Shown: in pieces, positions 18,596-64,000 of the stretch
Layout: each line of letters begins with the position of its first letter
How positions within the stretch are numbered: the first letter of the stretch is position 1
Assembly (NCBI RefSeq): GCF_023555375.1
Contig: NZ_JAJSEE010000001.1
Coordinates: 62,001 to 126,000 of the forward strand
Direction: 5' to 3'
DNA: 64,000 nucleotides
Origin: Guyparkeria hydrothermalis
GTDB lineage: Bacteria > Pseudomonadota > Gammaproteobacteria > Halothiobacillales > Halothiobacillaceae
Translations under genes and position numbers: made by a program
The notes under the pieces: generated by a model
Seen by the model: the letters and a program-made list of their open reading frames with translations, nothing else
Told to the model about the DNA's origin: nothing
Databases searched by the model: none

Positions 18596-19785
18596 GTCAC
18601 CAGGGGAAACTCTGCACGATTCGATGGCATCTCTGGCTCGCGGGTTTGTTCGCAATCAAGGCGCCGGACCGAAGGCGGGCTTATTGCCCGTCGAGGGACG
18701 GCAACGCCGAGTGCGGACAAACCCGCGAGCCCCGTCCGGGCGGGCCTCCAAGGGCCCCATCTGCGGCGTTGCAGCCCTTGTAAAGGGCGACGGCCCTTCT
18801 CGGCGGACTGCGCCTTGCATCTGGGCCCTTGGAGGTCCCGCAGAGACGTCATCGAATCGTGCAGAGTTTCCCTAGCCGGCGTGCCAGCCTCGGCGCTCGC
18901 ATGAACCGGCCCGGGCATCCCATCATCCGGGGTTGCCGGACCAAGTAAGAACCGCGACACCGTCGCCAGCACTTCCTCGCCGAACGGGAACACGTTCGAC
19001 AGGCTGATCACCAGCCCGGCATGACGCAGGTTATCCACGCGCAACAACTCCACCGGCACGCCGGACTGTTCCAGCCGGCGGGCGAGGCGCTCGGTGTTGC
19101 GCGGATCGACCACCGGATCGTCCGCGCTCACCACCAGCAGCGTCGGCGGCACGTCGGCATCGACCCAGTTGACCGGCTGGCTGGATGCCAACGGGTCGGC
19201 CGGCTCGAAGATGCGCTCGAGCGTGGCGTCGTTCAACGGCAGGAAATCGTAGGGGCCGGCAAGTCCCGCCCAGCTGGCAATCCAGTCGCGCCCGCCACCC
19301 ACGGACTCGAGATAGCGTGCATCGGTGACCAGCATCGCGGCGTTGTACGCGCCGGCCGAATGCCCCAACAGCGATAGCCGTGCGGGATCGCCGCCGTACG
19401 CCGTGGCCTGCTCGCGGGCCCAGGCCACCGCGCGGGCCGAGTCGCACAGGAACGCCGGGTAGCGCACCTCCGGGTAGACGCGGTAGTCCGGAATCATCAC
19501 CACCAGTCCGCGACTCGCCAGTGTCCGCCCCAGGAACCCGTAGGTGGAACGATCGCCCGACTGCCAGCTACCGCCCCAGAAAAACACCACCACGGGCGCG
19601 TCGGTCGCATCGACGGGGCGGTAGACGTCCAGCGACAACTCGCGCTCGGCATCGAAGACCACGTCACGGGTCACGGCCACCGATTCGCTCGGTGCGAGTG
19701 ACTCGAGGACCCGCGCCCCCGAACAGGCAGTCAGGTTCAGCAGGGTCACACTCGCCGCGGTGATCGCGGTCAGGATTCGTTTCAC
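18421..19785 (-). CDS. alpha/beta hydrolase lipoprotein, C-terminus extended by a repeat
   Basis: A lipoprotein of the BD-FAE/esterase type: signal MKRILTAITAASVTLLNLTAC with lipobox Cys21, oxyanion region FFWGGSWQSGDR (about 69-79), nucleophile GHSAGA with Ser143, acid in SADDPVVDP (about 220-228) and His in NLRHAGL (about 255). The recognisable enzyme ends by residue 304. From 305 to about 393 the frame runs through the inverted-repeat element at 18604-18872, which has no stop in this frame, and then 61 residues antisense to cca. The native stop was therefore probably lost on insertion. Whether the long form is stable is unknown. A carboxylesterase or lipase role is likely; substrate unknown. 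Confidence 0.8.
   Translation of the reverse strand: MKRILTAITAASVTLLNLTACSGARVLESLAPSESVAVTRDVVFDAERELSLDVYRPVDATDAPVVVFFWGGSWQSGDRSTYGFLGRTLASRGLVVMIPDYRVYPEVRYPAFLCDSARAVAWAREQATAYGGDPARLSLLGHSAGAYNAAMLVTDARYLESVGGGRDWIASWAGLAGPYDFLPLNDATLERIFEPADPLASSQPVNWVDADVPPTLLVVSADDPVVDPRNTERLARRLEQSGVPVELLRVDNLRHAGLVISLSNVFPFGEEVLATVSRFLLGPATPDDGMPGPVHASAEAGTPARETLHDSMTSLRDLQGPRCKAQSAEKGRRPLQGLQRRRWGPWRPARTGLAGLSALGVAVPRRAISPPSVRRLDCEQTREPEMPSNRAEFPLVTQVESPSSGAARKAATARMRSRLRASPSALPRMPRSSNGWGETAATAARTRRSQSPSG
18604..18872 (+). repeat. structured inverted-repeat element, copy A
   Basis: A 269-bp unit bounded by 32-bp terminal inverted repeats (18604-18635 and 18841-18872, beginning GGGAAACTCTGCACG). 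Inside lie two arms: 18636-18654 with 18712-18730 (19 bp, one mismatch or wobble) enclosing a hairpin at 18674-18692, and 18742-18757 with 18823-18838 enclosing the hairpin GCCCTT-GTA-AAGGGC at 18774-18788. Nearly identical units occur at 37038-37305 (opposite orientation) and 58497-58764. It starts 9 bp after the cca stop and interrupts the 3' end of the opposing hydrolase gene. No transposase is encoded; it looks like a non-autonomous (MITE-like) element. Arms and boundaries were read directly. Confidence 0.92.
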
Positions 19786-36893: not shown

Positions 36894-37017
36894 GGCAACC
36901 TCACGGTCTCGCGCAACGACCAGTCGTCCTCGGATTGACAGACGCCCGGCCGATCAGGGTGTTGACGGGGAAGCGGAGTCTAGCACCCGTCCCGCGCGCC
37001 CGGCGGGGCTTGGCATT

Positions 37018-37035
37018 CATTCGTGCAGGGTTTCC
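37018..37035 (-). repeat. solitary element end next to copy B
   Basis: CATTCGTGCAGGGTTTCC matches the right terminal repeat of the short element D (CATTCGTGCAGAGTTTCC) with one change. No matching partner end was seen nearby. It is separated from copy B by two bases, so B appears to have inserted against an older decayed element. Confidence 0.7.
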
Positions 37036-37037
37036 TC

Positions 37038-37305
37038 GGGAAACTCTGCACGATTCGATGACGTCTCTGCGGGACCTCCAAGGGTCCAGATGCAAGGCAC
37101 AGTCCGCCGTGAAGGGCCGTCGCCCTTTACAAGGGCTGCAACGCCGCAGATGGGCCCTTGGAGGCCCGCCCGGACGGGGCTCGCGGGTTTGCCCGCACTC
37201 GTCGTTGCCGTCCCTCGACGGGCAATAAGCCCGCCTTCGGTCCGGCGTCTCGATTGCGAACAAACCCGCGAGCCAGAGATGCCATCGAATCGTGCAGAGT
37301 TTCCC
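37038..37305 (-). repeat. structured inverted-repeat element, copy B
   Basis: A 268-bp copy in the opposite orientation to A and C, with the same 32-bp terminal repeats, both internal arms and the GCCCTT/AAGGGC hairpin. It differs from A by a handful of substitutions and one missing C. Its end lies 16 bp before the ATG of the Na/Pi cotransporter gene, so it now forms most of that gene's upstream region. The rest of the 36894-37321 gap holds the solitary end and no gene. Confidence 0.92.
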
Positions 37306-37321
37306 TAGCTATCATGACCCC

Positions 37322-58441: not shown

Positions 58442-58496
58442 GCGCGAACTCCTTGATTCCGTGAATGAAATCGTGTCGTGAAAAGTGACCGCCCTA

Positions 58497-58764
58497 GGGA
58501 AACTCTTCACGATTCGATGGCATCTCTGGCTTGCGGGTTTGTCCGCAATCAAGGCACCGGACCGAAGACGGGCTCGTTGCCCGTCGAGGGACGGTAACGC
58601 CGAGTGCGAACAAACCCGCGAGCCCCGTCCGGGCGGGCCTCCAAGGGCCCATCTGCGGCGTTGCAGCCCTTGTAAAGGGCCACGGCCCTTCACGGCGGAC
58701 TGCGCCTTGCATCTGGGCCCTTGGAGGTCCCGCAGAGACGTCATCGAATCGTGAAGAGTTTCCC
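58497..58764 (+). repeat. structured inverted-repeat element, copy C
   Basis: A 268-bp copy in the same orientation as A. Both ends carry the same change: CTCTTCACG on the left and CGTGAAGAG on the right, where A and B have CTCTGCACG/CGTGCAGAG, so the outer stem stays perfectly paired. The internal hairpin (GACGGGC-TCGTT-GCCCGTC) is fully Watson-Crick here but has a G-T pair in A. It lies between the CopD-like gene and the aldolase start and makes up most of the 58442-58827 gap. Confidence 0.92.
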
Positions 58765-62039: not shown

Positions 62040-63185
62040 TCAGTGGATCGGTTCGTGGGTGAACTCGATCACGGCGCGGGCGTCATCCGCTGCCTGGGCA
62101 AAGGCATCGGCGCCGGTACCGCTGTAGGTCGAACCACCGAACACGGCATCCATGATCGATTCGGTCCGCTCCACGAAGACGCCGTCGCCGTCCGGGTCGG
62201 TCAGGTAGGTCACGCTGCCGCCGTGAATCGCGGTTCGATCATAGGCGAACCCGGATAGATCGTAATAGCCGTCCTCGGCATTGTTGATACCGAGAATGGT
62301 GTTGAGGTAGACCACCGTATCGACCGTGATCGCTTTCGTCTTGGACGCGGCGCCCCCCAGGAACGCGGCGGCCTCCTGCAACGTCCAGCTGCCCTCGGTG
62401 AGCGCGGCCCGGTACAGCGACAGGTTCGCCAGCGGCGAGTCGATGGTCAGTTCATTGCCATCGGCATCCACCACCAGGAACCGACCGGCGGCATCGGTCT
62501 CGATCTCGCCATCGGCATCCAGCGACAGCGTGCGTAGCGCCTCCTCGAACGCGTGGTCCAGCACGGATGGCGGGGCACGGCCGACGTTTAGCCGCTCGAA
62601 CTCCACTTCCTGCAACGCGTTCTCGTCGACCACCTCGGTAAAGCCTTCCGCCTCGGGGTCGTCGGAGGCGTAGGGGATCACGTTGCCGTCGGCATCCACG
62701 AACTGCACCCGCCCCAGGTTGTCCAGCTCGGGCGAGCCGTCGGGTTCCCGCAGGATCACGTAGAGATCCCCGTACAGGCTGCCCTTGCCCGCCGAACCGC
62801 CTTGAATGCGATCGAGGCTGTCTCGCCCCTGGCCGCGGAACACGCTATCGACCAGGTGCTGACTTCCGGACCCGGCATGGCCGCCGCCCTTGCCCCCGGT
62901 GCCACCCTTGCCGCCCGGACCTTTCTTTCCATGGTCGCTGTCGGCGTGATCGTCCGTGTGGTCATCGGTGTGCGTCGTGCCGGTATCGTGGCCGCCGCCG
63001 GACGAATGCCCGCCACCGGCATGCCCCCCGGAATGACCGCCCTCGGCCGCCTGAACGGCCGGGACGGCGGTAAACGGCGCGGCAGGCCCCCTGTCGATGA
63101 ACATCGACCCCGAAACCAGCCCGGCGACGGCCAGGCTGGCAAACAACGGTCGATACGTGGTCTTGACCGAATTCGTGATCGTCAT
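62040..63185 (-). CDS. secreted His/Asp/Gly-rich protein, paralog 1
   Basis: A 381-residue exported protein of unknown function. The signal peptide is MTITNSVKTTYRPLFASLAVAGLVSG and beyond, cleaved near AVQAAEG. Residues about 45-100 are a low-complexity Gly/His/Asp/Lys segment (GGHSGGHAGGGHSS, HTDDHTDDHADSDHGKK) that could bind metal. The rest is an acidic domain with repeated FVDADGN and LVVDADGN turns reminiscent of calcium loops, ending EFTHEPIH. GAGGGG precedes the ATG at 63185 by six bases; the longer frame upstream runs antisense over the neighbour. The next gene upstream is a paralog with the same C-terminus (FIHEPIH). I do not recognise a named family. Confidence 0.75.
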   Translation of the reverse strand: MTITNSVKTTYRPLFASLAVAGLVSGSMFIDRGPAAPFTAVPAVQAAEGGHSGGHAGGGHSSGGGHDTGTTHTDDHTDDHADSDHGKKGPGGKGGTGGKGGGHAGSGSQHLVDSVFRGQGRDSLDRIQGGSAGKGSLYGDLYVILREPDGSPELDNLGRVQFVDADGNVIPYASDDPEAEGFTEVVDENALQEVEFERLNVGRAPPSVLDHAFEEALRTLSLDADGEIETDAAGRFLVVDADGNELTIDSPLANLSLYRAALTEGSWTLQEAAAFLGGAASKTKAITVDTVVYLNTILGINNAEDGYYDLSGFAYDRTAIHGGSVTYLTDPDGDGVFVERTESIMDAVFGGSTYSGTGADAFAQAADDARAVIEFTHEPIH

Positions 63186-63246
63186 TTGAATCCCCTCGGG
63201 ATTACCCGTTTGTGCTGATTGCTCGTCTTTCTTGAGAGCAATGGCG

Positions 63247-63273
63247 AAAAAAGACCCCCGGTGTACGGGGGTC
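63247..63273 (-). terminator. rho-independent terminator between the two paralogs
   Basis: On the minus strand GACCCCCG and CGGGGGTC form an 8-bp stem with a 5-base loop and a run of six T, 40 bp past the stop of the upstream paralog. Confidence 0.88.
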
Positions 63274-63312
63274 TTCAAGATGGCTACCAGCCATTCCACC
63301 TCACCAGGCGAA

Positions 63313-64000
63313 TCAGTGAATCGGTTCGTGGATGAACTCGATGACCTGCACGGCGTCGTCCGTGGACAAGGCGTAGCCCGTGGCGCCCTCGCCAGTGGCG
63401 GCTTCGCCATCGAACACGGCATCGACCAGCGGCTCGGTGACCGTGATGTAGGTCCCGTCACCTTCCGGATCGGTCAGGTAGCTCACCATGACACCGTCAT
63501 ACGCCTCGAGGCGATCGTAGGTGAAGCTCGCCAGGTCGACCCAATCCATGGTGGTGGCGCCCGTGTCCGGATCCGTGACCTCCTGGTTCAGGCCGAGGAT
63601 GGTGTTCAGGTAGACCACCATGTCGAGCGTCACGTTGCCGAACTTGCTCGCCGCGGCGGCCAGCAGGGAGTCGGTCTGGTCCAGGGTGAACGTCTCGTTG
63701 CCATCGATGTCGTCGTTCAGGCGGATAATCGCGTCCTGGTAGAGCGCCAGGTTCTCGAGCGGGGAGTCGATGGTGTAAACCACACCGTCAGCGTCCTCGA
63801 TCACGATGCGACCGGCCGCGTCGAACTCGAACACACCATCGGCATCCAGCGCGATCGTCTCGAGTGCCGTGTCAAGCGAGTGGCTCAGCACCGCCTGCGG
63901 AGACCGGGCGAGGTTCAGGCGGTCAAACGCGACTTCCTGAAGCAGAGACTCGTCGGCCACCTCCGTGAAGCCCTCGTCTTCCGGATCATCGGAGAGGTAC
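63313..64000 (-). CDS. secreted acidic protein, paralog 2, partial
   Basis: The frame is open to the right edge, so the N-terminus is missing; about 228 residues are visible. It aligns throughout with paralog 1: YLSDDPEDEGFTEVADESLLQEVAFDRLNLARSP matches YASDDPEAEGFTEVVDENALQEVEFERLNVGRAP, TIDSPLENLALYQ matches TIDSPLANLSLYR, VVYLNTILGLN matches VVYLNTILGIN and both end HEPIH. The order suggests a tandem duplication. A terminator separates it from paralog 1. Function unknown. Confidence 0.8.
   Translation of the reverse strand, partial: YLSDDPEDEGFTEVADESLLQEVAFDRLNLARSPQAVLSHSLDTALETIALDADGVFEFDAAGRIVIEDADGVVYTIDSPLENLALYQDAIIRLNDDIDGNETFTLDQTDSLLAAAASKFGNVTLDMVVYLNTILGLNQEVTDPDTGATTMDWVDLASFTYDRLEAYDGVMVSYLTDPEGDGTYITVTEPLVDAVFDGEAATGEGATGYALSTDDAVQVIEFIHEPIH

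Follow-up and report, generated by a model that had tools for sequence, protein, structure and literature searches.

The window analysed here, a stretch of 64,000 nucleotides from Guyparkeria hydrothermalis, contains three copies of a short palindromic repeat that very probably represents a family of non-autonomous miniature transposons (MITEs) with IS5-type ends. The repeat is unnamed in the literature searched and occurs at about 40 places of this one Guyparkeria-type genome. Its units are short and lack a transposase gene, are bounded by terminal inverted repeats, and are associated with a target duplication and with an empty site in relatives. Movement of the element is deduced from sequence comparison, no transposition having been observed.

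Copies in the window and their neighbours

The three copies, on the plus, minus and plus strands, respectively, are 94–97% alike in pairwise blocks. The relevant features of the window are as follows:

18601..18604, no strand: 4-bp target position on the left of copy 1; it reads CAGG and is regarded as decayed
18604..18872, plus strand: copy 1 of the element; with a 4-bp duplication, the limits of the element proper are 18605-18871
18604..18634, plus strand: left terminal inverted repeat of copy 1
18635..18731, plus strand: inner arm 1 of copy 1, a long hairpin enclosing a further hairpin
18740..18841, plus strand: inner arm 2 of copy 1
18842..18872, plus strand: right terminal inverted repeat of copy 1
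18872..18875, no strand: 4-bp target position on the right of copy 1, reading CTAG
37014..37035, minus strand: end of a further, decayed copy beside copy 2, with 3 mismatches against the end pattern
37038..37305, minus strand: copy 2 of the element (CTAG at 37305-37308; CTCG on the other side, plus strand)
58497..58764, plus strand: copy 3 of the element, flanked by CTAG (58494-58497) and, at the opposite end, by CGAG

A previous reading of the window from its letters alone (the sequence-only reading) had described three near-identical units at gene edges, each with CTAG beside one end only, and all of this was borne out. In copy 1, CAGG stands on the left and CTAG on the right; read in element orientation, copies 2 and 3 have CTAG on one side and CGAG on the other. 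The limits that it had given to the units are right in position, with each end one base too wide under the 4-bp duplication model. Copy 1 lies between the tails of the genes for a CCA tRNA nucleotidyltransferase and an alpha/beta-hydrolase, and a Na/Pi cotransporter ORF begins less than 25 bp past the end of copy 2. Copy 3 has a CopD-like ORF on its upstream side and, just downstream, another ORF which, going by its translation in place of a family match, we take to be a class I fructose-bisphosphate aldolase. The same insertion as copy 3 is present in the same orientation in a sister species (G001; L071). Elsewhere in the window (62040-63630), two adjoining stretches are alike at 70–82% identity in blocks, which is likely to be a tandem gene or domain duplication.

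Fold and modular anatomy

The units have the architecture that the sequence-only reading had described, namely terminal inverted repeats and two inner arms with further hairpins. The outer stem pairs query positions 1-31 with 239-269 (30 pairs) and the two separate inner arms span query positions 32-128 and 137-238, each enclosing a further hairpin. Folded as RNA with four flanking bases on each side, copy 1 reaches −200.1 kcal/mol versus a shuffle mean of −119.2 (z −15.8); folded as DNA, it gives a z of −13.4 versus shuffles. The earlier view that such a nested fold is unusual for a MITE is weakened by passages of the literature that present stable stem-loops as a usual feature of MITEs in bacteria (PMC10969869, PMC2229807).

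In most copies the inverted-repeat ends start with GGAANNTCTGCACGA, with variant copies starting with GGAAGGTCTG or GGAACCTCTG, among others. The interior is modular. Three units of 176–178 nt are without arm 2, and seven units of 340–352 nt have an extra block of about 72 nt in this arm. As read from the alignments, L052 is without most of arm 1, L051 has arm 1 inverted, L046 has a different insert, and some copies display a longer hairpin tip in arm 1.

Copy number and spread

In the genome of origin (2.43 Mb, 9 contigs) we found 98 matching pieces, which we read as at least 40 places; this is a lower bound, as 40 of the 110 first-look candidates were scored, and 3 of the 40 places sit at contig starts and may be parts of shared copies. 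We were able to define both ends for 37 units of 159–352 nt, too short to hold a transposase gene, the other three being cut by contig starts. Thus, the repeat coincides with assembly breaks, with three contigs of this genome starting inside the element.

A search of relatives for the unit, as the sequence-only reading had envisaged, recovered the family from 17 of the 57 genomes searched (own included). Within Guyparkeria, a genus of sulfur oxidisers, it is present in 10 of the 11 genomes searched and absent from G003, which is 64% complete. Outside the genus it is found in 4 of 16 other members of the family, with partial matches in 3 more distant genomes. Among named records, the exact end was recovered in 9 stretches from Guyparkeria sp. 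SCN-R1, a Guyparkeria MAG and Halothiobacillus-labelled MAGs. Among 369 genomes drawn across the class, the exact end GGAANCTCTGCACGAATC was found in five: three of the genus, G338 (one match) and G172, a member of another family (20 matches); it was absent from a fourth genome of the genus, G005. G172 has 42 matching pieces of the element (the L224-L253 region set), with up to 87% identity, and 4 of the 10 units listed from it have the duplications CTAG, CTAG, CTAA and CTTG. This scattered presence across genomes suggests that the element may have spread by horizontal transfer, including to G172. Searches of plasmid records for the element and of viral contigs for its exact end returned no match.

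Parts of the element also recur in other contexts. In G041, a genome of another family, palindromic repeats that otherwise differ from the element (L148, L149, L174) contain the tip of arm 2 (query 160-215, GTTGCAG..CTTG..AAGGG..CTGCGCCTTGC) in a form about 84% alike, a module shared with an unrelated genome. A 21-nt form of this tip is present in two viral contigs. Further, a second, shorter MITE family of about 150–180 bp was found in the sister-genus genomes G021 and G019 (L158-L162, L164). Its ends, GGAATCTCTGCACGAATCCATC / GGAAGGTCTGCACAAA, have the same end core as the element; thus, there is more than one MITE family with such an end in the taxonomic family.

Target duplication and empty sites

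Insertion of the element duplicates 4 bp of a Y-W-W-R-like target. We compared the left and right flanking 4-mers at 100 sites, one per direct-orientation orthologue cluster (inverted orthologues were not merged, and units under 0.55 identity were left out). They are identical at 31 of these sites, whereas 2000 shuffles gave 8.8 on average and never more than 19, which supports the earlier proposal of a mobile unit with an IS5-like tetranucleotide target. The identical 4-mers are CTAG (12 sites), CTTG (6), TTAG, TTAA and CAAG (3 each) and four others found once each. The targets are thus 4 bp long and YTAR-like, as looked for in an IS5-derived MITE, a YTAR target being a mark of the IS5 group. 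At the remaining 69 sites, which include all three window copies, the 4-mers are unequal, and this is taken as decay of the duplication.

TA lies on both sides at 30 of the 100 sites. Where the outer bases of such sites are non-complementary, L027, L043, L075, L080 and L142 fit a 4-bp duplication exactly and L111 does not; these five exact fits versus one misfit favour a 4-bp over a 2-bp duplication.

Empty sites were sought in the genus with the joined flanks of 12 sites of the genome of origin, and the 30 returned loci were aligned. The site of L032 is flanked by CTTG on both sides in the genome of origin and is empty in relatives, with a single CTTG in all four aligned loci (L192, L205, L198 and L207, from three genomes). 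This is the empty site with one tetranucleotide for which the sequence-only reading had pointed to relatives. The sites of L022, L029 and L044 are likewise contiguous in relatives, but with changes around the junction; those of L024, L027 and L028 gave alignments with gaps or mismatches; and for L016, L017, L018, L019 and L033 no junction-spanning alignment was present among the 30 aligned loci. We also observed that decayed ends of other copies adjoin intact copies, as at 37014-37035 in the window and in the flanks of L026, L039 and L140. Thus, units seem to insert beside or into older ends.

The search for a transposase

The sequence-only reading had attributed the movement to an IS5-type transposase acting in trans. 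The IS5-like 4-bp duplication agrees with this proposal, but profile searches of the 11 genus genomes (PF01609, NF033581) recovered no IS5-type transposase that was intact. PF01609 matched in one of the 11, at L069 of G002, whose ends, as read from its sequence, are unrelated to the element. NF033581 was above the cut-off in none of the 11, with weak fragments in G002, G008 and G003; the fragment of G002 lies at a contig end, where a full copy is possible, and its visible end reads differently. In G172, there was no match to PF01609, and the sole match to NF033581 is a fragment with other ends. The IS5 fragments L257 (G172) and L258 (G002) were both read as having a different, GGCACCTCGA-like end.

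The closest candidates come from the sister genus. Here, L210 is a complete IS5 element (NF033581, E 6.6e-89) with ends GGAAGGTCTGATCAAT and a TTAA duplication, and GGAACCTCTGATTGAA lies near the contig-cut L213 and near the fragment L217. We scanned 19 genomes of relatives for isolated ends and then examined 16 stretches. No autonomous element with the full end was found in the genome of origin, in the 19 relatives or, by one exact pattern, in the 369 genomes of the class; the search yielded only isolated ends, fragments and the shorter MITE family of G019 and G021. With neither an intact transposase nor an element with the full end recovered, the parent is lost or unsampled. The missing source in the genome lowers the case for derivation from IS5 but leaves it possible, as the source may have been lost.

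We also considered that the mover might be a transposase outside the IS5 group, for example of the IS630/Tc1 type with a TA duplication, or an unrecognised enzyme common to the genus and G172. TA is indeed the commonest target core, and the element is abundant in G172, which, like most of the genus, has no PF01609 match. Yet the duplication is of 4 bp, the CTTG and CAAG targets are without TA, and the ends of the element resemble IS5 ends over 10 bases; we therefore regard a mover of this kind as improbable. Its specific IS630/Tc1 version, with a 2-bp TA duplication, was rejected on the 4-bp duplication, the CTTG/CAAG targets and the lack of any PF13358 match in the 11 genus genomes. Under the favoured derivation from IS5, an IS5-group transposase from a relative would have mobilised the units in trans through a cut-and-paste mechanism, recognising them by their ends, and this source would since have been lost from the genus or have escaped sampling.

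What the stems record

The sequence-only reading had likened the branched unit to a structured RNA. On such an account, the copies would be a structured non-coding RNA gene family, or a cis-acting RNA on a mobile unit, with the branched fold kept by selection. The very stable branched fold speaks for it, and it predicts both covariation and an excess of G–T over A–C summed across all cells.

Covariation was assessed on 91 independent sites and compared with 300 shuffles, kinship between copies staying in the data. Pairs with double Watson–Crick changes number 21 of 30 in the outer stem, 19 of 38 in the main helix of arm 1, and 5 of 18 and 10 of 22 in the outer and inner parts of arm 2. The fraction of Watson–Crick cells and the number of double-change cells exceed all 300 shuffles in all four stems, as the RNA account would have it. 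Counted by pairs, double changes surpass all the shuffles in three stems, the outer part of arm 2 having 5 versus a shuffle maximum of 6. When the 3' partner was slid by 1–3 columns, the double-change pairs, observed at 21, 19, 5 and 10, came to no more than 12, 10, 6 and 7; for the inner part of arm 2, one such slide gave 38 double-change cells compared to 58 observed. Most of the covariation signal thus comes from the outer stem and arm 1. A covariance test of the arm pairs, on which the structural claim had been staked, hence came out mixed: the cells beat the shuffles in all four stems, but slid arm 2 gives similar pair counts.

If RNA were selected, one-sided changes should favour G–U over A–C on the RNA strand. 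Pair states were counted on 109 copies (orthologues included). From these, as from the 91 independent sites, the contig-cut L041, L053 and L054 and other units under 0.7 identity had been left out. Among the 109 copies, rare states (seen at most 3 times) comprise 89 G–T versus 94 A–C cells (p 0.77), and singleton states 22 versus 35 (p 0.11). The rare mismatches are thus equal, with no G–U preference on either strand, and selection on RNA is not indicated. Summed over all cells, G–T exceeds A–C in the outer stem (135 vs 80), the main helix of arm 1 (189 vs 50) and the inner part of arm 2 (524 vs 41), with 26 vs 40 in the outer part of arm 2. This summed excess is borne by a few old shared pairs (e.g., 46/114, 47/113, 162/213, 163/212 and 166/209); moreover, the structure was folded from one copy with G–U allowed and A–C never, so that G–T is favoured by construction.

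Copies of the same insertion offer a more direct view. In direct comparisons we counted 6 double Watson–Crick changes versus 84 one-sided and 2 other double changes, with about 2.6 two-sided changes expected; in inverted comparisons the counts are 4 versus 95 and 5, with about 4.1 expected, these comparisons being not all independent. Compensatory change within one insertion, which was expected to be strong, is too weak to build on.

A crude ORF count around 34 copies gave 14 versus 4 codirectional neighbours (8 convergent, 5 divergent and 3 undecided), an orientation bias that agrees with an RNA but is suggestive only. Against an RNA also stand the loss of whole arms in some copies, the reversal of the element at orthologous sites (below), and Rfam, which gave no match at gathering scores; the one weak match near copy 1 has an E of 0.22 and 21 bits compared to a gathering score of 90. 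On the balance of rare G–T and A–C states, the one-sided changes and the Rfam result, we rejected a structured RNA as the main reading and consider it very improbable. Palindromic arms are by themselves no evidence of RNA function. In a family of miniature transposons, they would most simply be a DNA-level property of units able to fold back, which selection on active copies, template switching or both would maintain. As strong stem covariation of this kind could be misread as RNA function, the balance of rare G–U and A–C mismatches and the orientation at orthologous sites serve as guards against such a misreading.

Same insertion, opposite orientation

An unexpected result was that, at several sites, sister species carry the same insertion turned around with respect to each other. 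Orthologous sites were found by matching flanks between the fetched copies and were compared in genome orientation. This gave 12 clean sites, at five of which the orientation is opposite: L034, L097 and L117 vs L100; L043 vs L080; L045 vs L109; L101 vs L113 and L116; and L124 vs L128. The seven single-orientation sites are L021/L071, L025/L081/L085, L049/L141, L073/L079, L090/L093, L104/L115 and L125/L132. A sixth opposite-orientation site, L030 vs L087, is doubtful: the site is shared, but the units are only 88.7% alike and are not close relatives. L021/L095 and L046/L130 were dropped as lying at different positions, and L123, which clustered with L030, was not counted as the same insertion. 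At the five inverted sites, the interiors are 90–97% alike in element orientation versus 65–82% when reversed; for L043 and L045, which are without arm 2, the orientation was judged from arm 1.

The near-perfect inverted ends might allow in-place inversion of the interior: the 31-base ends could recombine with each other, or the template could be switched across the hairpin during replication. Either would suffice, and a recombinase or transposase could also be responsible. Template switching can both invert loops and make compensatory changes, according to a passage of PMC8794818.

Alternatively, the opposite orientations might have arisen by independent insertions at the same target, or by excision and re-insertion by a transposase; this bears on orientation only and is compatible with the units being MITEs. 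That target regions can be hit twice is indicated by L021/L095 and L046/L130, which lie at different bases, and L030/L087 and the ranks of L101/L113 as each other's relatives (14 and 13) point the same way. However, the oppositely oriented units of L043/L080 and of L124/L128 are mutual closest relatives among the copies compared, the closest relative of L100 is L034, at its own site, and L101/L116 rank 2 and 2 (L045/L109 rank 1 and 3). Accordingly, we give such repeated insertion or re-insertion a small but real chance, with in-place inversion preferred. A bolder version of in-place inversion would have the units act as genus-wide invertible intergenic switches that flip often, via their inverted ends or a dedicated recombinase, and reversibly alter the expression of neighbouring genes; this we hold to be very improbable.

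Comparison with known systems

The IS5 elements of the sister genus (L210, L213, L217) share with the element the first 10 bases of the end (GGAAGGTCTG / GGAACCTCTG, as in its variants), and the TTAA duplication of L210 is of 4 bp, as is that of the element. In contrast, they have a transposase gene, which the element lacks, and the ends differ beyond these 10 bases, the rest being ATCAAT / ATTGAA in the sister-genus IS5 and CACGAA in the element.

Among small repeats of other bacteria, the Correia repeat enclosed elements of Neisseria are, in the passages of PMC2229807 devoted to them, likewise short and mostly intergenic, with inverted-repeat ends and size variants that differ by an internal block. 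Unlike the element, they have TA at their ends and a 24-bp end repeat (PMC2229807). Promoters and an IHF site are reported for them in parts of PMC2229807 and PMC10969869; copy 1 has no promoter-like match, although with about 0.1 expected by chance this is a weak contrast. ERIC, RUP and other small bacterial repeats are similarly non-autonomous, stem-loop forming and mainly intergenic, and for most a matching transposase was not found or not sought, as also described in passages of PMC2229807. There, they are given as about 100–200 bp long, A+T-rich and mostly with TA ends, whereas the element is about 266 bp long and multi-armed with a 4-bp duplication. The BrickBuilt MITE of Porphyromonas gingivalis resembles the element in its IS5-like ends and long predicted stem-loops; as far as the relevant sections of PMC4596501 describe it, it differs in being minisatellite-based, in its end sequence, and in sharing its genomes with full IS5 elements whose ends are similar.

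The sequence-only reading knew of no named family with this layout, and we found none matching the repeat in the literature searched. Inversion (noted for the Correia elements of Neisseria gonorrhoeae in part of a review), size variants, and MITEs with IS5-like ends and long stem-loops are all known; thus, each feature of the element has a precedent. Within the literature searched, the family and its end sequence appear to be new, and the comparison between species adds a record, from outside Neisseria, of a single MITE insertion found in reversed orientation.
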